The position numbers and the translations under genes are program-made. The notes beneath the pieces are model-generated. The model was given only the letters and a program-made list of their open reading frames with translations. It searched no databases and had not been told where the DNA came from. A stretch of 33,151 nucleotides of DNA from Deltaproteobacteria bacterium (GTDB lineage: Bacteria > Desulfobacterota > Desulfobacteria > Desulfobacterales > Desulfosarcinaceae). Where the stretch lies: contig JAKAFO010000013.1 in assembly GCA_021819735.1 (NCBI GenBank), positions 1 through 33,151 on the forward strand, written 5' to 3'. Of the stretch, positions 5,638 to 33,151 are shown piece by piece. Each line of letters opens with the position of its first letter. Positions within the stretch are counted from its first letter, which is position 1.

Positions 5638-6954
5638 ATGGCAAAACACCAAACCCCGTTGTTGGACCAGCTTGAATCCGGACCGTGGCCGAGCTTTGTG
5701 TCCGACTTGAAGCAGCAAGCCGAGAAAAGGGCTAAAAATGCGGAAGGTATCGAATTTCAGATTCCCGTGGATGTCGTAGACGACCTCATGGGTATTCTCG
5801 AGCTTTCCTTCAAACAGGGCCGGACCCACTGGAAACATGGCGGCATCGTCGGTGTTTTTGGATACGGCGGCGGCGTTATCGGCCGTTACTGCGACCAACC
5901 CCAGATGTTCCCGGGCGTAGCCCATTTCCACACCATGCGCGTCGCCCAGCCGGGCGGCAAATTCTACACCACCGAGTTCCTGCGCAACCTTTGCCAGATT
6001 TGGGATATGCGCGGCAGCGGCATCACCAACATGCATGGCTCCACCGGCGACATCGTCTTCCTGGGTACCACCACCCCCCAATTGGAAGAGATCTTTTTTG
6101 AACTGACCCACAAGCACAATCAGGATCTGGGCGGCTCGGGCTCGAACCTGCGTACCCCGGCCGACTGCATCGGCCAGGCACGCTGCGAATTCGCCTGCTA
6201 CGACACCCAGGATCTGTGCTACGACCTGACCCAGGAATACCAGGACGAACTGCATCGTCCGGCCTTCCCCTACAAATTTAAGTTCAAGTTCGACGGCTGC
6301 CCCAACTGTTGCGTGGCCTCCATCGCCCGTTCGGACATGTCCTTCGTCGGTACCTGGAAAGACGATATCAAAATCGACCAGAAGGCCGTGCAGGCCTACA
6401 TCGGCGGCGAGCTGGCCCCCAACGCCGGCGCCCACTCCGGAAAGAACTGGGGCAAGTTCGACATCCAGAAGGAAGTCATCGGCCTGTGTCCCACCGAGTG
6501 TATGGTGATGGACGGCAAGACCCTCAAGATCAACAACCGCGAGTGCACGCGCTGCATGCACTGCATCAACGTCATGCCGCGCGCCCTGCGCATCGGCAAC
6601 GAACGCGGTCTGTCGATCCTGGCCGGCGCCAAAGCCCCGATCCTCGACGGCGCCCAGATGGGCACCCTGATCGTGCCCTTCATCGAAGCCGAAGCCCCCT
6701 ACACCAAGATCAAGGAAACAGTCATCGAGCCGATCTGGGATTGGTGGATGGAAGAAGGCAAGAACCGTGAACGTTTGGGCGAATTGATGAAACGCCAGGG
6801 TCTGCAGAAAGTCATCGAAGTGCTCGGTGTGGATCCCGATCCGCGCATGGTGCAAGAGCCCCGCTCCAACCCGTACATCTTCTGGAAAGAAGAAGAGGTC
6901 GAAGGCGGTTTCGAGCGCGACATCAACGAGTTCAGAAAACATCACCAGAGATAG
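5638..6954 (+). CDS. dsrA: Dissimilatory sulfite reductase alpha subunit
   Basis: DsrA is the alpha subunit of the cytoplasmic DsrA2B2 enzyme, which reduces sulfite with electrons delivered through DsrC, ending in sulfide. At 438 residues it is the normal family length. The siroheme-coupled [4Fe-4S] cysteines are seen as C-x5-C at Cys177/Cys183 (CIGQARC) and C-x3-C at Cys221/Cys225 (CPNCC). The inserted ferredoxin domain has Cys284 (LCPTEC) and CTRCMHC at 303/306/309. The start is fixed by TTGGAGG eight bases upstream and by the conserved [14 protein letters not shown]-terminus. dsrB follows after 11 bases, with its AGGAGG overlapping the dsrA stop, which indicates coupled translation. A long ORF on the opposite strand is a GC-driven shadow. 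Confidence 0.99.
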
Positions 6955-6965
6955 GAGGCGACACC

Positions 6966-8111
6966 ATGGCTTTTATTTCTTCCGGATACAATCCAGAAAA
7001 ACCGATGGAGAACCGCATCACCGACATCGGGCCGCGTAAATACGATGAGTTCTACCCGCCGGTCATCGCCGCCAACAAAGGCAAATGGCTGTATCATGAA
7101 ATCCTGCAGCCGGGAGTGTTGGTGCATGTGGCCGAATCGGGCGACGAAGTGTACACCGTGCGCTGCGGCGGTGCCCGTCTGATGACCACCACCCACATCC
7201 TCGAGATCTGCGAGATCGCCGACAAGCACTGCGGCGGACATGTGCGTTGGACCACCCGCAACAACATCGAGTTCATGGTGGACAACAAATCCAAGGTCAA
7301 ACCCTTGCTGGATGACCTGGCCGGCCGCAAGTTCAAGGGCGGTTCGTTCAAGTTCCCGGTGGGCGGCACCGGCGCCGGCGTCTCGAATATCGTCCACACC
7401 CAGGGCTGGATTCATTGCCACACCCCGGCCACCGATGCTTCCGGACCGGTCAAGGCGGTTATGGATGAGGTCTTCGCCGATTTCCAGAACCATCGCATGC
7501 CGGCCCCCGTGCGCGTCTCCCTGGCCTGCTGCTTGAACATGTGCGGCGCCGTGCACTGCTCGGATATCGCCATCCTGGGCTATCACCGCAAACCGCCGAT
7601 GTTGGATCATGAGTACCTGGACAAGATGTGCGAAATCCCGTTGGCCATCGCGGCCTGCCCCACCGCCGCCATCAAACCGGCCAAAGTGGAAATCAACGGC
7701 CAGAAACTCAACTCGGTGGCCGTGAACAACGAGCGCTGCATGTACTGCGGCAACTGCTACACCATGTGCCCCTCCATGCCTTTGGCCGATACCGAAGGCG
7801 ACGGCATCGTCATCATGGCCGGCGGCAAGGTCTCCAACCGCATCAGCGCGCCCAAGTTCTCCAAGGTCGTCGTGGCCTACATTCCCAACGAAGCACCGCG
7901 CTGGCCCAAAACCTCCCAGGTTATCAAACACATGATCGAAGTCTATGCCAATGACGCCCGCAAGTATGAGCGTCTGGGTGACTGGGCGGAGAGAATCGGC
8001 TGGGAACGTTTCTTCGAGAAGTGCGAACTTGACTTTACGCATCATCTGATCGATGATTTCCGCGATCCGGCGTACTACACTTGGCGCCAGACCACGCAGT
8101 TCAAGTTCTAA
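6966..8111 (+). CDS. dsrB: Dissimilatory sulfite reductase beta subunit
   Basis: DsrB is the beta subunit, and it carries the catalytically active siroheme in characterised DsrAB enzymes. At 381 residues it is full length. The siroheme [4Fe-4S] ligands are visible as Cys151 (IHCHTP) and Cys188, Cys189 and Cys193 ([12 protein letters not shown]). The ferredoxin domain is seen as AACPTAAI and [21 protein letters not shown] lies ten bases before the ATG. The paralogy with DsrA (same domain order, sulfite-reductase half-domains with inserted ferredoxin) is evident. After its stop there is an 82-base gap holding a very stable hairpin before dsrD, so downstream expression may be set independently. 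Confidence 0.99.
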
Positions 8112-16357: not shown

Positions 16358-16523
16358 GACCGTCTGCTCCTTGCAAAAGCAATGGGAACGACCTTATCGG
16401 GCTTCCCAAAGGGAAGACCGCACAGCTTCGTAAGACTACAAATGCAGCTCAGGGTCCCGCGTGCCGCGGAAAGTGGATGAAAAGTTGGGGCTTTCTATAG
16501 CACAGGTGCGCGATGGGGCGCAA

Positions 16524-17375
16524 TCAGTCAATCGCGGCCAGCCGCAACAATGCCGCCGCATTGCCGCCGCAGATCATCTGCTTGTGGGCCGCGCTCACGC
16601 CGGCTTGATCCATTTCGGCCAAGTAGCGCTTGGCCGACAGCAGAGGATAATCGGTGCCGAAGAGGATTTTCTCCGGCCCGGCCAGCTCCACGGCCAGGCG
16701 GTATACCTCCGGGCGGTAGAGATAGGGCGAGGCGGCCGTGTCGAACCACACATGGGAAAGGGCTTGCGCCACCTCTTTTTTCATCAGGTTGTACCAGAAG
16801 ATGCCGCCGCCCCAGTGGGCCAGGATCAGCCGGTTGCCGGTGTACTTTTTGACCATGGCATAGATCTGGGCCAGGGTGTTCTTGGTCTTGCCCGGGTAGT
16901 CGTGGCCCACCGGCTCGTTGGTGTGGATCATCACCGGCCGGTCGAAGCTTTGGGCCAGGGCCATGATCTCGTCCATGGCGCCCATGTCCTGGCACTCCAG
17001 GTCGGAGCAGTAGAACGCCAGTTCGCCGACGCCCCCAAGGCCGGCCTTAAGGCAGCGCTCGACTTCGGCCGGCGCCGAGGGTTCCAGGGCGTCCATGCAG
17101 CAAAAGCCGATGAGGCGGTCGGGATAGCGCGCCACGGCCTCCAGGATGTAGTCGTTGTGGCGCTGGAAGGTTTCGGCCGTGCGCCAGGGAAAGCCGAAAG
17201 TGACCGCCTTGTCCACCCCCTGGGCATCCATTTCGGCGATCAGTTGCTCGGCGCCGACCATTTTGGATTTGGACGATTCGTAGAGCAGGGTGAAGGCCGG
17301 CTCGTCGGCAAAGTAGCGCGCGCGGTCGTCACGGATGAAGTCCGGGAAAATGTGGGTGTGGAAATCGATCAGCAT
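16524..17375 (-). CDS. Amidohydrolase-family (metal-dependent TIM-barrel) protein
   Basis: A 283-residue amidohydrolase-2-type protein with metal-site motifs His6-x-His8 (DFHTHIFP), His151 (MIHTNEP), His187 (LAHWGGG) and Asp242 (FGTDYPLL). Relatives are decarboxylases or hydrolases of small cyclic or aromatic acids; the substrate cannot be inferred. The start at 17375 is chosen because GGAGGAG lies just upstream and the family N-terminus MLIDFHTH begins there. The longer track ORF adds 23 unrelated residues. It lies 99 bases after the pterin-binding methyltransferase gene on the same strand and may be its operon partner. Confidence 0.88.
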   Translation of the reverse strand: MLIDFHTHIFPDFIRDDRARYFADEPAFTLLYESSKSKMVGAEQLIAEMDAQGVDKAVTFGFPWRTAETFQRHNDYILEAVARYPDRLIGFCCMDALEPSAPAEVERCLKAGLGGVGELAFYCSDLECQDMGAMDEIMALAQSFDRPVMIHTNEPVGHDYPGKTKNTLAQIYAMVKKYTGNRLILAHWGGGIFWYNLMKKEVAQALSHVWFDTAASPYLYRPEVYRLAVELAGPEKILFGTDYPLLSAKRYLAEMDQAGVSAAHKQMICGGNAAALLRLAAID

Positions 17376-17474
17376 GGCGCGTGTTCTCCTCCAGAGGGTA
17401 GATCCGAGTCGGTCGCCGGGCCGCCCCGGCGGTCGGGATTCCATACCATAGCGGCCGGGGCGTGTCGCCTGCTT

Positions 17475-18269
17475 TTATCCGTCCGGCGGCGTCCAGGCGA
17501 AGACGCCTTCGGCCAGCAGGTCGGTGCAGATGCGGGCGGTTTCCAGGGTCGGGCCGTGCAGGACATTGACCAGCAGCAGATCGAGTCCGGCCGCGGCCAG
17601 CATGGGCAGAAAGGCTTGCTCCAGGGCGATCTTGCGGGCCAGGGGCAGGGCGCCCGAGGCCAAATTGGAGAGCCCGGCCATGGTGCGCACCGGCATGCCC
17701 AGCAGCTCGGGCAGTTGGCGGATCAGGGTCAGCACCGCCCGGTTGTGGCGGGTCCCGTCGGGCCAGGAGAGCGGCGCGATGACCGGATCGACGATCAGCC
17801 GCGCCGGGTCCAGATCCAGGGCGCGGTAGGCTTCGAACAAGTCCACCGCCAGAGCCATCAGCTCGTCGGCGGCGTGGGGCACGCGGCTGTCGGGGTGCAG
17901 CAGGTAGCCCACGATCTCGGCATCGTAGCGGCGGGCCAGGGGCAGGATGGCTTCGAGCTTGGCCGGCTCCAGGGAAAAGCCGTTGATGATGGCCCGGCCG
18001 CCGCAGGCCGCCAAACCGGCGTCCAGGGCCGTGGGATTGGTGGTGTCGAGCAGCAGGGGCAGATCGGTGACGGCCCGCACCGCCTCGACCAGGAAGCTCA
18101 TGCGCCGTTCGGGGGCGCGGGTCAGCGGCCCGCAATTGAGGTCGATGGCTTGGGCCCCGGCCTGGACGCAGCGCCGCACCAGGTCTTGAATCGGCTGCGG
18201 GTCCAGCGCCTCCAGGGCCCTTGCGATTTCCGGGCGCACCACATGCAAGTTGTCGGCGACAATCAGCAC
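17475..18269 (-). CDS. Pterin-binding methyltransferase (AcsE/MtrH-like)
   Basis: This 264-residue protein has the dihydropteroate synthase/methyltetrahydrofolate methyltransferase TIM barrel and the size of AcsE, which moves a methyl from methyltetrahydrofolate to a corrinoid protein in the Wood-Ljungdahl pathway. Pterin-site residues are visible: DLNCGP (43-48), Asp75 (LLLDTTNP), Asn96 (INGFS), Asp161 (VDPVI) and Asn202 (GLSNLASG). These match the positions important in characterised methyltransferases. The start is GTG at 18269 with GGGGGTGAGG upstream. It begins 15 bases after the VWA-OmpA gene stop. No corrinoid protein or other acs gene is in view, so the methyl acceptor is unknown. Confidence 0.85.
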   Translation of the reverse strand: MLIVADNLHVVRPEIARALEALDPQPIQDLVRRCVQAGAQAIDLNCGPLTRAPERRMSFLVEAVRAVTDLPLLLDTTNPTALDAGLAACGGRAIINGFSLEPAKLEAILPLARRYDAEIVGYLLHPDSRVPHAADELMALAVDLFEAYRALDLDPARLIVDPVIAPLSWPDGTRHNRAVLTLIRQLPELLGMPVRTMAGLSNLASGALPLARKIALEQAFLPMLAAAGLDLLLVNVLHGPTLETARICTDLLAEGVFAWTPPDG

Positions 18270-18284
18270 AACCTCACCCCCAGT

Positions 18285-20363
18285 TTATTGCTTTTGCAGA
18301 TAGTCCAGCGTGATGGTCACCGTGCGGTTCAGGGCCCGGCCCTCGGGCACGGCGTTGTCGTAGAGCGGCGCGTTGGGGCCGATCCCCAAAACGTCCAGGC
18401 GCGCGGCGGTATCCACGTCGGCCTCGATGATCGAGGCCTGCACCGCCTGGGCCCGGCGTTCGGACAACTGGGTGTTGTAGGCCTGGCTGCCGATGGCGTC
18501 GGTGTGGCCCGTGACCGTGATGCTGGCCTCGGGCACCTCGCGCATGCGCTTGATGATGCGCTCGACGATGACTCTGTTGCGTGCCTTGATGGCCGCGCTG
18601 TCAAAGTCGAAGAGGATCAGGGCATACTGCTCCTTGACCCGGTAGCCTTGGCTCTGGGTGGCCTGCTGGGTGCGCTGCACGAAATGGATCGGCAGGGTGG
18701 CCGCTTCGGATTTGTTCAGTTCGTTGGCCTCCGTGTCGATGGCCTGGAACTGCATATCGACCTTTTCGCAGGCGGCCATCTCGTCGAGCAGCGCGCCTTC
18801 CAGGGGCACGGCCCACTCGGTGGGCAAGGCGCCCCGACCCTTGAGGGTGCGGATCTCGCGCTCGCCGCAACGCAGGTTGAGCCGCCAATCGGCGATGCCG
18901 GCCTCGGATTGAATCTGCTGGAAGATGCGCAGTTGGCCCAGGTCGGTCACCTTCTGCACATAGGCGCTGTCCACCGTATCCAGGATGGCCTCCTGGTCGG
19001 CATGGATCTCCACGCGCTGGTTTTCGGCCTGCCCCTCGGCGATGCGGCTGGTGCTGGGTTTTTCGGGCAGGTTGCGCGGCTCGACGGTCATGCGCCGGGG
19101 TTCGATGCCCCAGACGTAGCGCAGGTAGGCGCGCACCGACTCCGCCCGGCTCAGGGAGAGATCCTTGCGCCCCTTTTCCGGTCCCACATTGGCGTTGCAG
19201 CCCACCAGGCGCAGGTTGGCCTCGGGATACCGCCGCAGGCGGCTGCCGATGATGTTGAGCACCTGGCGGTACTTTTCCATGGCGCCTTTGAGCTGCTTTT
19301 CGTCGAAGCCGGCGGTTTCGTCCTGGTTCCGGAAGAGCACATAGCGGTCGGTGAGCTCGCTTTGGCCGGTCGCAAAGTAGATCTGGTTGAGCAGCGGCGA
19401 GCTGTCGATGGTGGTGATCTCCTCGATGGTCAGCTCGGGGGCCGCGAAGGCCACCTGGCCCGTGGGCGGTTCCAACAGGCGATAGGTGACGATGTAACGG
19501 TGCAGCATGGTGGAGGCGAAGGCTTCGAAGATCGGCAGCAGTTCGGTGGCCGAGGCCGCCTTCCAGGCGCGGCCGCCGTGGCTGCCGGCCAACTGGCCCA
19601 GGAAGGGGTCGAGGGCCGGCGTCGGCATGTAGTCCACGGCAAAGGCCGAAAAGTTGGGGATGCCCTGGGCGGCCCGTTCGACCTCGTCCTTGGTGACCGT
19701 GGAGTTGATGTCCTCGCCGTCGGACATGACCACCAGAATCTTGTGCTGTTTCTCGGGCATGGTGCGCGCTGCGTCCAGGCCGGCCATCAAGGCATCCATC
19801 AGATAGGTGCCTTCGGTCAGGCCGCTGCTCATGCTCGCCGAGAGAAAGGCGCGCAGCGTGGCCTCATCGCTGGTCTGCAAAACCCGGGCGTGCAGCGGGC
19901 GTCCGTTGACCGTGGCGGTCTGTTTTTCGTCAAAGATCACGGCCGTCACCTGGTCGATGGGCCGCAGCATTTTGTAAAAAGCGTTGAGGGCCGAGCGCAA
20001 CGGCTCGATGGCCTGGCGAATGCGCATGGATTTGGAGTTGTCCACCACCAGTACGATATTGAGCGGCACCTCTTTGCTGGTGGCCAGCGGCTCCACGGAA
20101 ACGATCTTGGCGCTTTTGGTGCCCAGCCGGAGGCTGAAATCCTTGGCGGTCAACCCTTTGATGGGCACCTCATCCCGATCGGTGACCGATACGAGCAAAC
20201 GGCCGTCTTCCATGGTTTGAAAGACCACCTGGGCGGCGGTTTCAGGGCCCAGCAGATTCAGGGCGGGGGGCACGCTATCGACCGTGGCCGCCTGGACCGG
20301 CGAGACGGTCACCATTATAATCAACAGCCCTATTGCCAGAAACGTTTTGATTCGCACGATCAT
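18285..20363 (-). CDS. Secreted von Willebrand A / OmpA-like envelope protein
   Basis: A 692-residue exported protein. It has a signal peptide (MIVRIKTFLAIGLLIIM..., cleavage near VQA at 23-25), then a short beta-rich region (to about 95). A VWA domain (about 100-280) has an intact MIDAS motif DNSKS at 108-112. An OmpA-like segment (about 310-470, LRLVGCNANVGPEKGRKDLSLSRAESV) comes next. A clear C-terminal OmpA peptidoglycan-binding domain (about 575-692, ITVTGHTDAIGSQAYNTQLSERRAQAV) ends it. It probably sits in the periplasm on peptidoglycan and binds a protein or metal-bridged ligand. The start at 20363 is fixed by AAAGGAG and the signal peptide. The track's extra 31 residues are upstream of it. 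The methyltransferase gene follows after 15 bases. Confidence 0.9.
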   Translation of the reverse strand: MIVRIKTFLAIGLLIIMVTVSPVQAATVDSVPPALNLLGPETAAQVVFQTMEDGRLLVSVTDRDEVPIKGLTAKDFSLRLGTKSAKIVSVEPLATSKEVPLNIVLVVDNSKSMRIRQAIEPLRSALNAFYKMLRPIDQVTAVIFDEKQTATVNGRPLHARVLQTSDEATLRAFLSASMSSGLTEGTYLMDALMAGLDAARTMPEKQHKILVVMSDGEDINSTVTKDEVERAAQGIPNFSAFAVDYMPTPALDPFLGQLAGSHGGRAWKAASATELLPIFEAFASTMLHRYIVTYRLLEPPTGQVAFAAPELTIEEITTIDSSPLLNQIYFATGQSELTDRYVLFRNQDETAGFDEKQLKGAMEKYRQVLNIIGSRLRRYPEANLRLVGCNANVGPEKGRKDLSLSRAESVRAYLRYVWGIEPRRMTVEPRNLPEKPSTSRIAEGQAENQRVEIHADQEAILDTVDSAYVQKVTDLGQLRIFQQIQSEAGIADWRLNLRCGEREIRTLKGRGALPTEWAVPLEGALLDEMAACEKVDMQFQAIDTEANELNKSEAATLPIHFVQRTQQATQSQGYRVKEQYALILFDFDSAAIKARNRVIVERIIKRMREVPEASITVTGHTDAIGSQAYNTQLSERRAQAVQASIIEADVDTAARLDVLGIGPNAPLYDNAVPEGRALNRTVTITLDYLQKQ

Positions 20364-20504
20364 GCTCCTTTCGTTGTCCTTGCCGTTGAACCTTTGAAGC
20401 AATGGATGTACCATGGGGCCTGTGGCCGCAAGCCATCGGCATTGCTTCTTTTGCAACCCGGAAGGAAACCGCCTTGATTACCTTTTTTGCACTTGGATTT
20501 CAAG

Positions 20505-27181: not shown

Positions 27182-29074
27182 TCAATTGGGGCGGCCGGCA
27201 TAACCAAAGGGATCGTAGTCGTCGGCGATCAGCACCATCCAGGCCGTGGCGCAGGTGCTGGGAATGGGATTGGCGTGCCAGCCGAAAGGAATCATGGCCC
27301 GGCGGCTGGCATACAGATAGGGCAGCGATTGGGTTTCGATCAGGCCGGCGTAATTCTTGGGCTTGCCGGGGAAATCCACGGTTGCATAGCGGTCGTGGCG
27401 CAAATTGCCGAGGGCCGCCAGCATGGCCTGCTCGTCCCCATCGAGGCTCTCCACGTAGCGCTGGACCTCGGGAGATCCGCCGCCGGCCGCCACGCCGCGA
27501 TAGTACTGGCGCATGTTGCGCAGCATGCAGATGGCCCCGGCGCTCCACTCCGCCGAAAAGATGCCCTGCCGGTAAGCGCCCTCGGGCGTTACCCCATTGC
27601 CGTCCTGGTCCGAAAAACCTACCCCCCAGAGGGTGCCGTCCACGCCATAGGCGCCCCAGCTTTTCACCTGTTGCCACAAGTTGAAGGCCGATCCATTGCC
27701 GAACCAGGCATCGATCTGCCGGGCGCCCAGGGCGGCCACGGCCCAGGTGTTGACATCCACGGCCTTGGGTGCCAGGGTCGGCACCCAGGCGTCAGCCTGG
27801 CCCGGGGCATTGGCCAGCCCGCCCTGCACGAAGATGCCGTCGCGCCAGGCCCGGTGCCGGAAGAAATCCAGCAACCCGGCGGTCGACCGGTTGCGGCCCA
27901 GTTGCCCGCCATGCAGCATGGTTTGGACCGTGGACAGGGCTTGGCGGATGGCGCGTTTGTCGCGGCCGCTTAAATCGCTCTGGCCGGCCAGTTCGGTGCG
28001 CAGAATGGCGCGCAGTAAATTCAATCCGGCGTAGAGCGAGAAGTTGTTCTCCACCGCCACCTGGTGCGGATCGACGAAAGTGCCGCTCACGTTACCCGCC
28101 GTGCCCGCGGGTGCGTAGTACACCGCGCCGATTTCGGATTGCATGGCCGCAAACGCGGGCAGCACGGCCAGGGCCTGTTGGATCGCCAAATCCTCAAAGG
28201 GTACAAAGGTTTTCTGCAGATAGCGGATATGGTGCAGGTAGGCGGCCTGCAACGGTCCGAGGAGAAAGGCCCAGGCGTTTTCGCCGCTGATCGGCTTCCA
28301 GTCCGACCAGGTGATCTTGCCGCGACGATATTCCGGGCGGCGGGCCGGCAGTTCGTTCACCTGGATCAAGGCCTCGTAGGGCGATCCCATGAAGGGATCT
28401 TCCGAAAGCCAGTCGCGTCCGAGCATGCGGAAGAGATAGGCGTTGCGGGGATCGCCGATCTCCTGGCCGTTGTAGACAAACAGCTTCTTTCGGGTCACGG
28501 CCCGGTTGGCTCCGGTCACGGCCACCATGGCATCCCCGCAGTGGCTCTCCCGGAGCAGCAGGTTCTGGTGGCCGGCCAGGTCATAAGCATTGGCGGCATA
28601 GGGGTTGCCAAAGCCGTTGGCCACCTGCCCCAGGACCACGGCAATCTGCCAGACGGCGGCATCATAGATGTTGGCGCCGTTGTGCACGTTGACCCGCTCG
28701 GTTTGCAGCTCTCCGGCCGGTCCCGGCGCCGGCGCCAGCGAATAGTCCTGGGGGTTATAGCGATCGGCGACCGTGCAGGATTCGGGCGGCGCGCACACAT
28801 GCGTGCCCCAATAGGCGGCGCTATCGAGAAAGCTCAGGGGCAGGGCCCGGCCCTTGAGGTCGCCGGCGGTGGCGATATAGAGGGCGCCGCCCCGGGTCGC
28901 CCGCTCGCTGACCAGGAAGCGGTAGCTCTTCTCCAGCTCCCCGATGCCGCCCTGTTCCTGTGCCCCGGCCGCCGAGCAGCACAAGAGCGCGAACCCCATG
29001 CCCAAGCAGTATTTCCGGAAATTACCCCAGCAGAATTTCACTACCTGCCCCCTGTATGGTGTCCTGGGTCGCAT
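27182..29074 (-). CDS. Large secreted protein of unknown function
   Basis: A 630-residue protein I do not recognise. The N-terminus has a long signal-like segment (KFCWGNFRKYCLGMGFALLCCSAAGA, likely cleaved after AGA). The start at 29074 has AAGGAG nine bases upstream and is preferred over the track's 29101. The mature part is rich in Trp, Tyr, Ala and Gly. It contains repeated helical segments such as NAWAFLLGPLQAAYLHHIRYL and NTWAVAALGARQIDAWFG, plus aromatic-rich turns (GTLWGVGFSDQDGNG, WHANPIPSTCATAWM). This look is reminiscent of all-alpha toroid glycosidases, but I see no family motif and regard that as speculation. It precedes the permease gene by 21 bases. A periplasmic enzyme paired with a transporter is one reading. 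Confidence 0.75.
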   Translation of the reverse strand: MRPRTPYRGQVVKFCWGNFRKYCLGMGFALLCCSAAGAQEQGGIGELEKSYRFLVSERATRGGALYIATAGDLKGRALPLSFLDSAAYWGTHVCAPPESCTVADRYNPQDYSLAPAPGPAGELQTERVNVHNGANIYDAAVWQIAVVLGQVANGFGNPYAANAYDLAGHQNLLLRESHCGDAMVAVTGANRAVTRKKLFVYNGQEIGDPRNAYLFRMLGRDWLSEDPFMGSPYEALIQVNELPARRPEYRRGKITWSDWKPISGENAWAFLLGPLQAAYLHHIRYLQKTFVPFEDLAIQQALAVLPAFAAMQSEIGAVYYAPAGTAGNVSGTFVDPHQVAVENNFSLYAGLNLLRAILRTELAGQSDLSGRDKRAIRQALSTVQTMLHGGQLGRNRSTAGLLDFFRHRAWRDGIFVQGGLANAPGQADAWVPTLAPKAVDVNTWAVAALGARQIDAWFGNGSAFNLWQQVKSWGAYGVDGTLWGVGFSDQDGNGVTPEGAYRQGIFSAEWSAGAICMLRNMRQYYRGVAAGGGSPEVQRYVESLDGDEQAMLAALGNLRHDRYATVDFPGKPKNYAGLIETQSLPYLYASRRAMIPFGWHANPIPSTCATAWMVLIADDYDPFGYAGRPN

Positions 29075-29302
29075 CCATAGGCTCTCCTTCGCCAAGTGCA
29101 CGAATAGGCGTTGTCGGTCGGTCCAGGCAATGCATGCCGGCGTGGGTTCCGTACCCTACATCCCATGCTAAAAGCAAGGGGTATGGGGGCCGGATGTCCG
29201 CTGCGCGGGATTGCCCTGATGAAGAAGTTGATTTCGATTGATCTTCATGAACGGGTGCCCTATGTTCTTACCTGATTCTTACTTTGGTCCGGGAGGGTTA
29301 CC

Positions 29303-29557
29303 ATGCGAACAACCAAACTGTCGAGCAAGGGACAGGTCATCATACCGAAGGCCTTGAGAACCCGATACAATTGGAGCCCGGGGCAGGAGTTGTCGGTGAT
29401 CGATACGCAGGACGGCATCTTGTTGAAGCCGTTGCAACGGTTCAAACACTCCGACATCGAGGATGTCGCCGGCATTTTGAAATATTCGGGAAAGCCCGTC
29501 ACGATCGCGGAAATGCAAGCCGCGATCGAAAAAGGAGCAAAGGAGCGGAAGAAATGA
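29303..29557 (+). CDS. AbrB/MazE-type antitoxin
   Basis: This 84-residue protein has an N-terminal SpoVT-AbrB swapped-hairpin DNA-binding domain (TTKLSSKGQVIIPKALR...GQELSVIDTQDGILLKP, about 3-47). A C-terminal tail (DIEDVAGILKYSGKPVTIAEMQAAIEKG) probably wraps the partner toxin. GGGAGG lies before the ATG. Its stop overlaps the start of the PIN toxin by ATGA, the normal arrangement for a VapBC-like type II module. Such antitoxins usually repress their own promoter. An inverted repeat ATGAAG..CTTCAT (near 29219-29249) lies upstream as a possible operator. Confidence 0.92.
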   Translation: MRTTKLSSKGQVIIPKALRTRYNWSPGQELSVIDTQDGILLKPLQRFKHSDIEDVAGILKYSGKPVTIAEMQAAIEKGAKERKK

Positions 29558-29943
29558 TTTCGGTAGATACCAACGTCATTGTCCGCTTGCTGACAGGGGA
29601 TGACCGCGCGCAATTCAAAAAAGCCAAGGTATTGTTCGCAACGCAAGACGTTTTGATTACGACCTCGGTGATCTTAGAATGCGAGTGGGTTCTTCGATAT
29701 GCATATCGCTTCAAAGCGCATGAAATAGCGGATGCCTTCCAATCGCTGTTTGGATTACCCAACGTCCAATTGCAGGAACCGATGGCGGTTTATGATGCCA
29801 TCGAATGGCACAAACAGGGGTTGGACTTCGCGGATGCCCTCCACTTGGCCAAATCGCAAGATGCCGATTCCTTCGCGACTTTCGATAGACAATTGATAAA
29901 CGCCGGCTCCAAAATAATAACCCTTCCTCTCATGGCGCCCTGA
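29554..29943 (+). CDS. PIN-domain toxin (VapC family)
   Basis: This 129-residue PIN-domain ribonuclease has the acidic active site in place: Asp5 (SVDTN), Glu42 (ILECEW), Asp94 (DFADALHLA) and Asp111 (FATFD). VapC toxins cleave specific RNAs when released from the antitoxin. The start is the ATG overlapping the antitoxin stop, with AGGAGCGGAAG upstream. The track's longer ORF reads through the antitoxin gene in another frame. The pair marks the left edge of a less GC-rich, accessory-looking segment. Confidence 0.93.
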   Translation: MISVDTNVIVRLLTGDDRAQFKKAKVLFATQDVLITTSVILECEWVLRYAYRFKAHEIADAFQSLFGLPNVQLQEPMAVYDAIEWHKQGLDFADALHLAKSQDADSFATFDRQLINAGSKIITLPLMAP

Positions 29944-30624: not shown

Positions 30625-31332
30625 ATGAAAAGAAAAATTCTATTCGCCTATGCATTGCTTTCGATGGTCAGCGTTTTAGCCCTTATTGGCGTAAGCTGCG
30701 TCCCGGCTCTGGAAACAAGAGATTGCGTGGTGATGCTGGGTGACTCCATTTTCGATTTATCCGATGCTGAAACCGGATACCTGGAAGAGTTATCCGGCCA
30801 CCAGTATCGCACCTATTATTTGAATGGCGCCCAAATGGACGGCGGCACCATCCAGGATATCGAATCGCAATACGACAGCGCCATTCGGGCCGGCGCCATC
30901 CGTACGATCATCATGGACGGTGGCGGCAACGATTATCTGATGGGCAACGGTTCCGAGGAGGAGATCGCCGAGGAAGTTCGACAGGCCTATGCCCGGATTC
31001 TCAACAAGGCGCAAGAAGACGGGGTTCAGAACATCGTTGTGCAAGGCTACTATCTCACCGATAACTCCCCGGACGGTTATGCCGAGTCCGCGGCCGCACT
31101 GGGCGCGGGGCTGGAAGCCGCCGGCGCGAGTCGCGGCATAAAACTGGTTTACGTCAATCCAGTTGCCGACGCATGGTTCTCGAGCCGCAGACCCTCCCAA
31201 TACACCATCAGCGATGGGATTCATCCCACCGATGCCGCCTCCGAACGGCTGGCCCAACTGGTGTGGAATGCCATGGTGGCCAACGGTATCGAACAGGGCG
31301 CCGGCTGCCCCTCTAGCGGCGGCTGCAACTGA
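30625..31332 (+). CDS. Exported SGNH/GDSL-type hydrolase
   Basis: A 235-residue esterase or lipase of the SGNH fold. Block I is GDSIFDL with the nucleophile serine, block III is GGGNDYLMG, and block V is DGIHPTD with the Asp and His. An N-terminal signal (MKRKILFAYALLSMVSVLALIGVSC) ends at a cysteine, suggesting possible lipoprotein anchoring, although the -3 residue is Gly rather than Leu. The start at 30625 has AGAGGGGGGA upstream. The track ORF from 30475 adds 50 implausible residues. The C-terminus is cysteine-containing (GCPSSGGCN). It is convergent with the DAPG-hydrolase-like gene, with a long hairpin between them. Substrate unknown. Confidence 0.88.
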   Translation: MKRKILFAYALLSMVSVLALIGVSCVPALETRDCVVMLGDSIFDLSDAETGYLEELSGHQYRTYYLNGAQMDGGTIQDIESQYDSAIRAGAIRTIIMDGGGNDYLMGNGSEEEIAEEVRQAYARILNKAQEDGVQNIVVQGYYLTDNSPDGYAESAAALGAGLEAAGASRGIKLVYVNPVADAWFSSRRPSQYTISDGIHPTDAASERLAQLVWNAMVANGIEQGAGCPSSGGCN

Positions 31333-31352
31333 TAGCATAAAGCGTTGAGATT

Positions 31353-31385
31353 CGGTTCGCCGCCGATGATGTCGGCGGCGAACCG
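31353..31385. terminator. 14-bp hairpin between convergent genes
   Basis: CGGTTCGCCGCCGA (31353-31366) pairs perfectly with TCGGCGGCGAACCG (31372-31385) around TGATG. It lies between the stop codons of two convergent genes and could end transcription from both sides. Neither side has a good T-tract, so termination may need Rho or be partial. Confidence 0.55.
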
Positions 31386-31411
31386 TTCCAACCCCTTAAT
31401 TCTTGTGGGGT

Positions 31412-32281
31412 CTATTTGAATTCTTCAAATATCTCCGGGAGGAAAGCGGCGAGATGGTTGTACTCCGTGGCGCAATGCACGGCTAAGCTCATGGCCGTGT
31501 TCTGATTGATTGCCAGTTTACGCAAAGCTTGGCTATCGAGCCCTTGCCCCAGCCAGAAACGGCTTCTGAGTTCCAACCCATCGGCCGTCCTGCGAAACAT
31601 GTGAACCATATAGGTGTGTTCAACAGGGATGCCGGCGACCATATACCCAACAACGCCGCAGACAACGGCTTCGATGCCCGTTTCCTTGAATCGCGAGGTG
31701 TCGAAACCGAAATCTTCAGGCGAGATGAAGCGGATCGACAGGCGCCGGACACCGGTTCCGACATCCTCCACGGGATACTGAGGATTGTTCAGGTATCGCT
31801 GCTGATAGGACAACGCGGCATCGTTCATCTGCGCCATATCTTCCACGCCGATCCCATAATGCGCGCCGGGACACCAGATTTTGTAGCGGATATCTTTGAG
31901 CGCGTGCCACCAGAACCACCAGTGGATCATCTCTGCGCTGGCGCCGGGGAATTCGGTCCGCACCGCCACGAAACCCGTACCGTCCGGGTTCAGGCCGTAT
32001 CCATTTTCCACAGCCAGGTAGCCGGGTTCGAGCAGGTCGTTGAGATCTTCGAATTTCAGGGCCTTGGTGCTCTCGACGGGTCCGTGGGACAACCCGGCCG
32101 CCACCTCCTCCGGAAAGGGCGCAAAGGTCGAATCATAATAGCTTGCTTCCGGCATCTTTTTTTCCCAGAAAGTGAGCCCCGAAAACCATGCAAAACAGAC
32201 CGTGGCTCCAAGAAAAATGAGTAAAACCGAGATGATGGATATGTAAACGCCCTTGCCCCATTTCATTTTGTATCTTTTCAT
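31412..32281 (-). CDS. Membrane-anchored DAPG hydrolase (PhlG)-like protein
   Basis: A 289-residue protein with one N-terminal membrane helix (YISIISVLLIFLGATVCFAWF, about 13-33) and a C-terminal domain like 2,4-diacetylphloroglucinol hydrolase PhlG and phloretin hydrolase. These zinc enzymes cleave a carbon-carbon bond between an aromatic ring and an acyl group. Signature elements are EMIHWWFWWH (117-126), RYKIWCPGAHYG, and the HxxxE pair His269/Glu273 (HCATEYNHLAAF). The membrane anchor is absent from the characterised soluble enzymes, so it may act at the periplasmic face. GGGAGGA lies seven bases before the ATG. Two palindromic operators and the tetR gene lie upstream. The actual substrate is unknown. 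Confidence 0.82.
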   Translation of the reverse strand: MKRYKMKWGKGVYISIISVLLIFLGATVCFAWFSGLTFWEKKMPEASYYDSTFAPFPEEVAAGLSHGPVESTKALKFEDLNDLLEPGYLAVENGYGLNPDGTGFVAVRTEFPGASAEMIHWWFWWHALKDIRYKIWCPGAHYGIGVEDMAQMNDAALSYQQRYLNNPQYPVEDVGTGVRRLSIRFISPEDFGFDTSRFKETGIEAVVCGVVGYMVAGIPVEHTYMVHMFRRTADGLELRSRFWLGQGLDSQALRKLAINQNTAMSLAVHCATEYNHLAAFLPEIFEEFK

Positions 32282-32310
32282 AACGATTCCTCCCTCGTCC
32301 CTGTTTGTAT

Positions 32311-32324
32311 TAGAACGCGTTCTA
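32311..32324. promoter_or_regulatory. Operator 1, perfect palindrome
   Basis: TAGAACGCGTTCTA, a perfect 14-bp palindrome, just downstream of the predicted -10 of the hydrolase gene. It is identical to operator 2; the centres are 52 bp apart, about five helical turns. Probable binding site of the adjacent TetR protein. Confidence 0.8.
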
Positions 32325-32325
32325 T

Positions 32326-32354
32326 ATATAAATGGTGCTCAGGGATGGCGTCAA
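32326..32354 (-). promoter_or_regulatory. Promoter of the DAPG-hydrolase-like gene
   Basis: On the minus strand: TTGACG (32349-32354), a 17-base spacer, then TTATAT (32326-32331), or TATATA with an 18-base spacer. It lies between the two palindromes. The predicted start falls within operator 1, so bound repressor would block it. Confidence 0.6.
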
Positions 32355-32362
32355 CGAAAAAA

Positions 32363-32376
32363 TAGAACGCGTTCTA
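32363..32376. promoter_or_regulatory. Operator 2, perfect palindrome
   Basis: Second exact copy of TAGAACGCGTTCTA, eight bases upstream of the hydrolase -35 and about 100 bases before the tetR start. Confidence 0.8.
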
Positions 32377-32478
32377 AAATATTGAACGATAGGAAGCGCC
32401 AAGGCAATTCTCGATGTGAACGCGCTGTGAAGGTTCGCCCAAGTTGACTTCTGACGACTAACCCACTATGGGATAGCC

Positions 32479-33129
32479 ATGAAGAGAGATCAGCATAAAT
32501 TGGAGATTCGAAGCAAAGTGTTGGATGTGTCCAAACGGCTCCTTGTGGCACAGGGCTATTCGAGCACAACCATCCAGCAGATTATCTCCGAAGCCGGAAT
32601 TACAACCGGCAGTTTGTACCATTTCTTTCGGAACAAGGAAGATATCCTGTTGCATGTCGCCGAAGAGATGTTCCATATGGCCTCGCAATTGGCGGACAAC
32701 ATCTTCACCGACACGGACAATCCCGGCCTGAGATTTGCCCTGGAGATTGCGTTACAACTTCAGTTTATCCTAGAATATAAAAGTATCGGTGAGATCTACC
32801 TTGCCGCATACGGTTCGAGCCAGATTTCGGAACACATTTGTACCTGGGCAACCGCTAGAAATGCGGAGCTGTTCAAAAAACACAACCCGGGCTTTACCCA
32901 TGAAGACTTTTATACTAGGTCGCTGGCCGTCAAGGGTATTCTGCACAGCTTCATCGATGAGTATGTCCACTATAACAAGCTCGCGGACCGCAAGCGGATC
33001 GACAGCATCCTGGAGCTGACCCTTTCATTATTTGACCTCCCCGATGAAGAGATTCGGGACATTATCAAAAAAAGCAGCAAGCTGATCAAGAGTGGCTTAG
33101 CGAAATTACGGGGCAATATACCAACCTGA
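32479..33129 (+). CDS. TetR/AcrR-family transcriptional regulator
   Basis: A 216-residue TetR-type repressor. The N-terminal helix-turn-helix (about 8-55) reads VLDVSKRLLVAQGYSSTTIQQIISEAGITTGSLYHFFRNKEDIL. The remaining helices form a ligand-binding and dimerisation domain of unknown specificity. It is divergent from the DAPG-hydrolase-like gene and shares the intergenic region with two identical palindromes, so autoregulation and control of the hydrolase are expected. The ribosome binding site is weak (GGGAT). A candidate promoter TTGACT-17-TATGGG (32444-32472) would start transcription at or near the ATG, hinting at a leaderless or short-leader mRNA; this is weakly supported. Confidence 0.93.
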   Translation: MKRDQHKLEIRSKVLDVSKRLLVAQGYSSTTIQQIISEAGITTGSLYHFFRNKEDILLHVAEEMFHMASQLADNIFTDTDNPGLRFALEIALQLQFILEYKSIGEIYLAAYGSSQISEHICTWATARNAELFKKHNPGFTHEDFYTRSLAVKGILHSFIDEYVHYNKLADRKRIDSILELTLSLFDLPDEEIRDIIKKSSKLIKSGLAKLRGNIPT

Positions 33130-33151
33130 GGCCCTGTGCCCTTTCATGCCT

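Follow-up and report, generated by a model that had tools for sequence, protein, structure and literature searches.

A TetR-family regulator gene and a pair of palindromic putative operators at the predicted promoter of a phloretin hydrolase-like gene conserved in Desulfobacterota

The window considered here, that is, the whole stretch of DNA analysed, comprises 33,151 nucleotides of a contig from a member of the Desulfosarcinaceae (JAKAFO010000013.1), which ends at position 33151, just after a tetR gene. Since it holds dsrA and dsrB at 5638-8111, both over their NCBIfam cut-offs, this DNA can fairly be assigned to a sulfate or sulfite reducer, and its attribution to a sulfate reducer in an earlier sequence-only reading is reasonable. 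Close to the contig end, two divergent genes are separated by an intergenic stretch of 197 bp. The one on the minus strand (31412..32281) encodes an enzyme of 289 aa resembling DAPG and phloretin hydrolases, and the one on the plus strand (32479..33129) encodes a TetR-family regulator of 216 aa. Two exact copies of the 14-bp palindrome TAGAACGCGTTCTA lie between them, one proximal to the hydrolase gene (op2, 32311..32324) and the other distal (op1, 32363..32376), neither having a strand assigned. The description given in the sequence-only reading, two identical palindromes 52 bp apart next to a minus-strand hydrolase gene and a divergent tetR, is thus confirmed by exact matches and domain calls.

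The enzyme belongs to the PF18089 family (E = 1.3e-77), its match reaching 260.7 bits against a curated cut-off of 22.7. A phmmer search relates it to phloretin hydrolase (5xe5/5xey, E = 1e-45) and to PhlG (3hwp, E = 6e-38), with which it shares the domain and the same four zinc ligands. When aligned with PhlG (3hwp) and phloretin hydrolase (5xey), the enzyme has these ligands at H141, E172, H269 and E273, all invariant in ten homologues and facing H129, E160, H270 and E274 of PhlG. The window enzyme differs from these characterised proteins in having an N-terminal hydrophobic segment, and in carrying Phe242 at the position of PhlG Tyr229, which is also Phe in nine of the ten homologues. Taking into account that the PhlG equivalog model NF047887 gives 137.5 bits against a cut-off of 600, DAPG should not be assumed to be the substrate.

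The hydrophobic segment covers residues 12-30 (32192..32248, minus strand; hydropathy 2.5), and may be either a signal anchor or a degenerate lipoprotein signal around C29, a residue that aligns with the lipobox-like cysteine of five orthologues. Such a segment ending near a Cys is present in all seven hydrolases of the module described below, and five of these show a lipoprotein-like signal (e.g., LTGC in locus L007 or LMGC in genome G462). In the window and in locus L006, a Val precedes the Cys (C29 in the window enzyme, whose lipobox is non-canonical), and here the segment may serve as an anchor that is not cleaved. The membrane-anchored hydrolase proposed in the sequence-only reading is supported in part by this strong hydrophobic segment and by the lipoprotein-like orthologues, the non-canonical lipobox of the window enzyme counting against it. 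The segment was not found in three sampled chromosomal homologues that lack this TetR. A plasmid homologue from Pantoea agglomerans (L085 2219-3262) has a twin-arginine-like start, SRRKLLRS, and therefore export in the PF18089 family may not be unique to the module.

As for the regulator, its membership of the TetR family is given by the TetR_N domain (PF00440, E = 4.4e-14) together with a predicted all-helical fold (pLDDT 82.7), and this protein would bind both operators. No match named PhlH was found among its NCBIfam, sequence and profile matches. When the ligand domain was searched alone against solved structures, no sequence relative was obtained, and in consequence the inducer cannot be guessed from sequence. 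A tentative tetR promoter (TTGACT-N17-TATGGG; 32444..32472, plus strand), whose -10 box is weak, lies close to the ATG and clear of the operators, and a like arrangement exists in L006 and L007 only.

Perfect 14-bp palindromes are not rare per se, the window holding four of them against about 3.7 per random window. Repetition of a perfect one was seen in one out of 200 random windows with the same dinucleotide make-up, and two sites keeping at least nine of the ten outer bases would fall in the 197-bp intergenic stretch with a probability of about 5e-5. Within three mismatches, op1 and op2 are the only occurrences of TAGAACGCGTTCTA in the window (chance mean 0.44), and they are again the only ones at zero or one mismatch in the 5.3-Mb genome to which it belongs, where two sites with two mismatches, both TGGAACTCGTTCTA, were also found. 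The search for further genomic copies suggested in the sequence-only reading therefore reveals no scattering of the palindrome. The looser pattern TAGAAYNNRTTCTA occurs in this genome at background level (three sites against two in a reversed control), so that a wider regulon was rejected, and the extra TAGAAYNNRTTCTA sites of this and related genomes either fall within coding sequence or have unrelated genes nearby. A single TAGAATATGTTCTA of the same genome (L054 1501; contig C101, 30508) is placed upstream of an isochorismatase-like gene, identified by eye, the count of such sites being that of the background. Paired sites were not found in viral contigs, and an Rfam search of 31300-33151 gave no match.

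A genome scan led to two orthologous regions, L006 from a Desulfobacterales MAG (93% identity for the hydrolase and 85% for the TetR) and L007 from HGW-Deltaproteobacteria-13 (56% and 55%, respectively). The former contains TAGAACGCATTCTA twice, 52 bp apart, and the latter TAGAATGCGTTCTA and TAGAATAAGTTCTA, 55 bp apart. Searching the order with the TetR alignment yielded four further close TetRs, in genomes G405, G462, G466 and G629. In each case the tetR gene diverges from that of a PF18089 hydrolase, and the intergenic region carries sites of this type. In total, seven loci (the window and six from other Desulfobacterota, with hydrolase identities down to about 50%) combine the TetR, the hydrolase and the sites, although they are not fully independent, since six of the seven come from one order. 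This co-occurrence supports the TetR/hydrolase switch put forward in the sequence-only reading.

In every locus of this module the TetR orthologue is divergent from the hydrolase, and the consensus of the sites is TAGAAYnnRTTCTA. Two clear sites exist in six of the seven loci, the exception being L040, with one clear site and a degenerate one, its op1 having decayed to TCGAACCCATTTAA at the expected place. The stretch ITTGSLYHFF of the recognition helix is invariant in the seven TetRs, strong TetR orthologues appear once per genome, and over the loci a Pearson correlation of 0.88 links hydrolase identity to TetR identity. Regarding controls, nine other PF18089 regions of the phylum, without this TetR, have no such site adjoining the hydrolase, and in some of them the hydrolase adjoins a different TetR. 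Such sites are likewise absent from three plasmid PF18089 regions, homologues from Pantoea and Mycobacterium among them, and no exact site of this kind was found near the genes of distant TetR paralogues (29-37% identical). Taking into account these control loci and the background level of the extra sites, it can be said that the sites accompany this particular TetR, and a single promoter appears to be their target. In three of the loci op1 and op2 have one and the same sequence, which differs from locus to locus, with central CGCG twice in the window (32311-32376), CGCA twice in L006 (3906-3971) and TACA twice in L041 (1115-1174), which fits one protein reading both.

The promoter assigned to the hydrolase gene would be formed, on the minus strand, by a -35 box TTGACG (32349..32354) and a -10 box TATATA (32325..32330) with an 18-nt spacer, and a ribosome-binding site, GGGAGG (32289..32294, minus strand), precedes the hydrolase ATG by 7 nt. 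A plain sigma-70 consensus scan of the window found no promoter, these -35 and -10 boxes included, and for this reason the promoter claim rests on conservation. The order toward the hydrolase in each locus is op1, 7-8 bp, TTGAC(A/G), 17-18 nt, a -10-like hexamer and op2. The start of op1, even where this site is degenerate, lies 21-22 nt before the start of the -35 TTGAC in all seven loci, leaving 8 bp between op1 and the -35 box in the window. An equivalent of op2 exists in each of the other six loci, and op2 begins 23-24 or 30-34 nt after the start of the -35 box, so that it overlaps the -10 box or falls on the predicted start site; in the window it directly abuts the -10 box and covers the predicted transcription start.

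The distance between both operators, measured start to start, is 52 bp in the window (4.95 helical turns) and in L006, 55 in L007, 45 in L038, 54 in L039, about 56 in L040 and 46 in L041, which means a range of 4.3-5.3 turns over the seven loci. Since this spacing differs between orthologous loci, the helical phase is not conserved. In sum, the place of each operator relative to the core promoter is fixed, whereas the spacing between operators is variable.

Release from DNA by a ligand is the usual mode of action of TetR-type repressors, and it is highly probable that the locus works as a switch of this kind with a single target, in which TetR dimers would occlude the hydrolase promoter from both sides. 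The neighbouring TetR is most likely the protein that runs it. According to this proposal, the TetR would bind as dimers to both palindromes. One dimer would lie a few base pairs upstream of the -35 box and the second would cover the -10 box and the start region, which would deny RNA polymerase access from either side. The inducer would be a small molecule, most likely the substrate of the hydrolase or a compound related to it, whose binding to the TetR would lead to the release of the DNA and to the synthesis of the enzyme. The hydrolase would be carried to the membrane or the periplasm and, by means of its zinc site, would break a C-C bond in an acylated phenol or a similar diketone-like compound.

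With regard to the inducer, this reading could be refined by assuming that the TetR senses a simple phenol, as is the case for RolR, the resorcinol regulator. The predicted fold of the TetR is matched best by RolR (TM 0.70), which also ranks second by sequence when the profile of the seven TetRs is searched. However, TetR folds are all alike, and this sequence match comes chiefly from the DNA-binding domain, no relative being obtained with the ligand domain alone. Furthermore, the essential Asp149 of RolR (PMC3086911) is not kept, the aligned residue being variable or, with a one-residue shift, Asn128. A RolR-type ligand pocket was rejected because this key Asp is missing, and RolR-like sensing of a simple phenol is considered unlikely.

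It has also been considered that the sites could act mainly in tetR autorepression, the hydrolase being affected only incidentally. TetR regulators often repress their own synthesis, and KstR does so through a palindrome identical to that of the window, as reported in PMC1995591. However, the distance from the tetR start to the nearer site goes from about 100 bp in the window to about 280 bp in L041, the distances of the sites are fixed to the hydrolase promoter and not to tetR, and the tentative tetR promoter adjoins the tetR ATG, all of which makes this explanation quite improbable. The sites may nonetheless act on tetR as a second effect.

The sequence-only reading had interpreted the distance between operators as same-face spacing, suggestive of two dimers that bind cooperatively or loop the DNA. 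The 52 bp (4.95 turns) of the window and L006 agree with this idea, but the other loci, with spacings of 45, 46, 54, 55 and about 56 bp (4.3 to 5.3 turns), do not, and op1 is nearly lost in L040. Moreover, taking into account the stiffness of DNA, the distance between the dimers would not allow them to touch, and so short an intervening stretch would not loop easily. Cooperativity or looping through the same helix face was thus rejected on the variable spacing, and we regard it as very improbable; the fixed placement of the sites with respect to the promoter, combined with this variation, favours occlusion by separately bound dimers.

Finally, that the TetR could be a KstR counterpart controlling lipid genes in a KstR-like lipid or steroid regulon is scarcely credible, because, in spite of the identical 14-bp motif TAGAAC(N2)GTTCTA (PMC1995591) and of a fold match to the KstR-DNA complex 5fmp with a TM of 0.63, genomes with KstR contain 16-31 of its sites each (PMC1995591) against two here, both at one promoter, RolR is a better fold match, and no KstR model was found among the NCBIfam matches.

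The proposed switch run by a ligand-released repressor has its closest known counterpart in the control of phlG by PhlH in the Pseudomonas fluorescens group. There, PhlH acts as the repressor of phlG through an intergenic operator, from which DAPG releases it (PMC8003664), the compounds causing release including flavonoids or pyoluteorin (PMC8003664, PMC11878095). Both systems have in common a TetR-type repressor adjoining a PF18089 C-C hydrolase and an operator between the genes. In Pseudomonas, however, the pair is part of the DAPG biosynthesis cluster. In the sulfate reducer it forms a stand-alone unit, its hydrolase promoter is bracketed by two operators, and the hydrolase bears a predicted export or anchor segment. 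The window shares with the KstR system of Mycobacterium the operator motif, but not the many sites of a large lipid/cholesterol regulon, its only exact sites serving one promoter. A KstR site overlapping the -10 region, as well as an intergenic region with two copies, have been described (PMC1995591).

Therefore, the DNA motif is not new, being equal to the KstR operator, and the novelty claimed in the sequence-only reading does not extend to it or to the regulatory logic, which is that of PhlH-phlG. It applies to the occurrence in a sulfate reducer and to the putative export or anchor segment. The new elements would be an exported or anchored hydrolase, the bracketing pair of sites and a conserved stand-alone module in Desulfobacterota. 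Overall, the system is real and conserved, and its proposed mechanism is ordinary.

A broader role can be proposed with considerable reserve, its likelihood being rather low: the Desulfobacterota module might couple a cytoplasmic TetR sensor to an exported, lipid-anchored C-C hydrolase that would work outside the cytoplasm and destroy acylphenols, such as plant dihydrochalcones or DAPG-type antibiotics, serving the anaerobe for defence or food-gathering. Clusters for the phloroglucinol pathway and its degradation have been reported in diverse bacteria, sulfate reducers included; some of the clusters hold a hydrolase of this type, and phloretin hydrolase is reported within those of Mycobacterium (PMC10470551). 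In view of these clusters, the module may bear on the turnover of polyphenols without oxygen. The locus offers a clean and testable repressor-operator pair in the little-studied sulfate reducers, learning what induces the TetR would give a lead to the natural substrate of the hydrolase, and the layout of paired sites could be used as a search key for further members of the module.

Other features of the window deserve mention. An open frame of 1338 aa on the plus strand (16461-20477) and a protein of 639 aa on the minus strand (27182-29101) have no Pfam match, the gene of the latter adjoining a CitMHS-type transporter, as it does in L006. Between this 639-aa gene and a GDSL-lipase gene, the translations suggest, by eye, a toxin-antitoxin-like pair formed by an AbrB-like and a PIN-domain (VapC-like) protein (29303-29943). 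Since the GDSL-lipase and 639-aa genes are only about 150 bp apart in L006, the pair looks inserted in the window or lost in L006.
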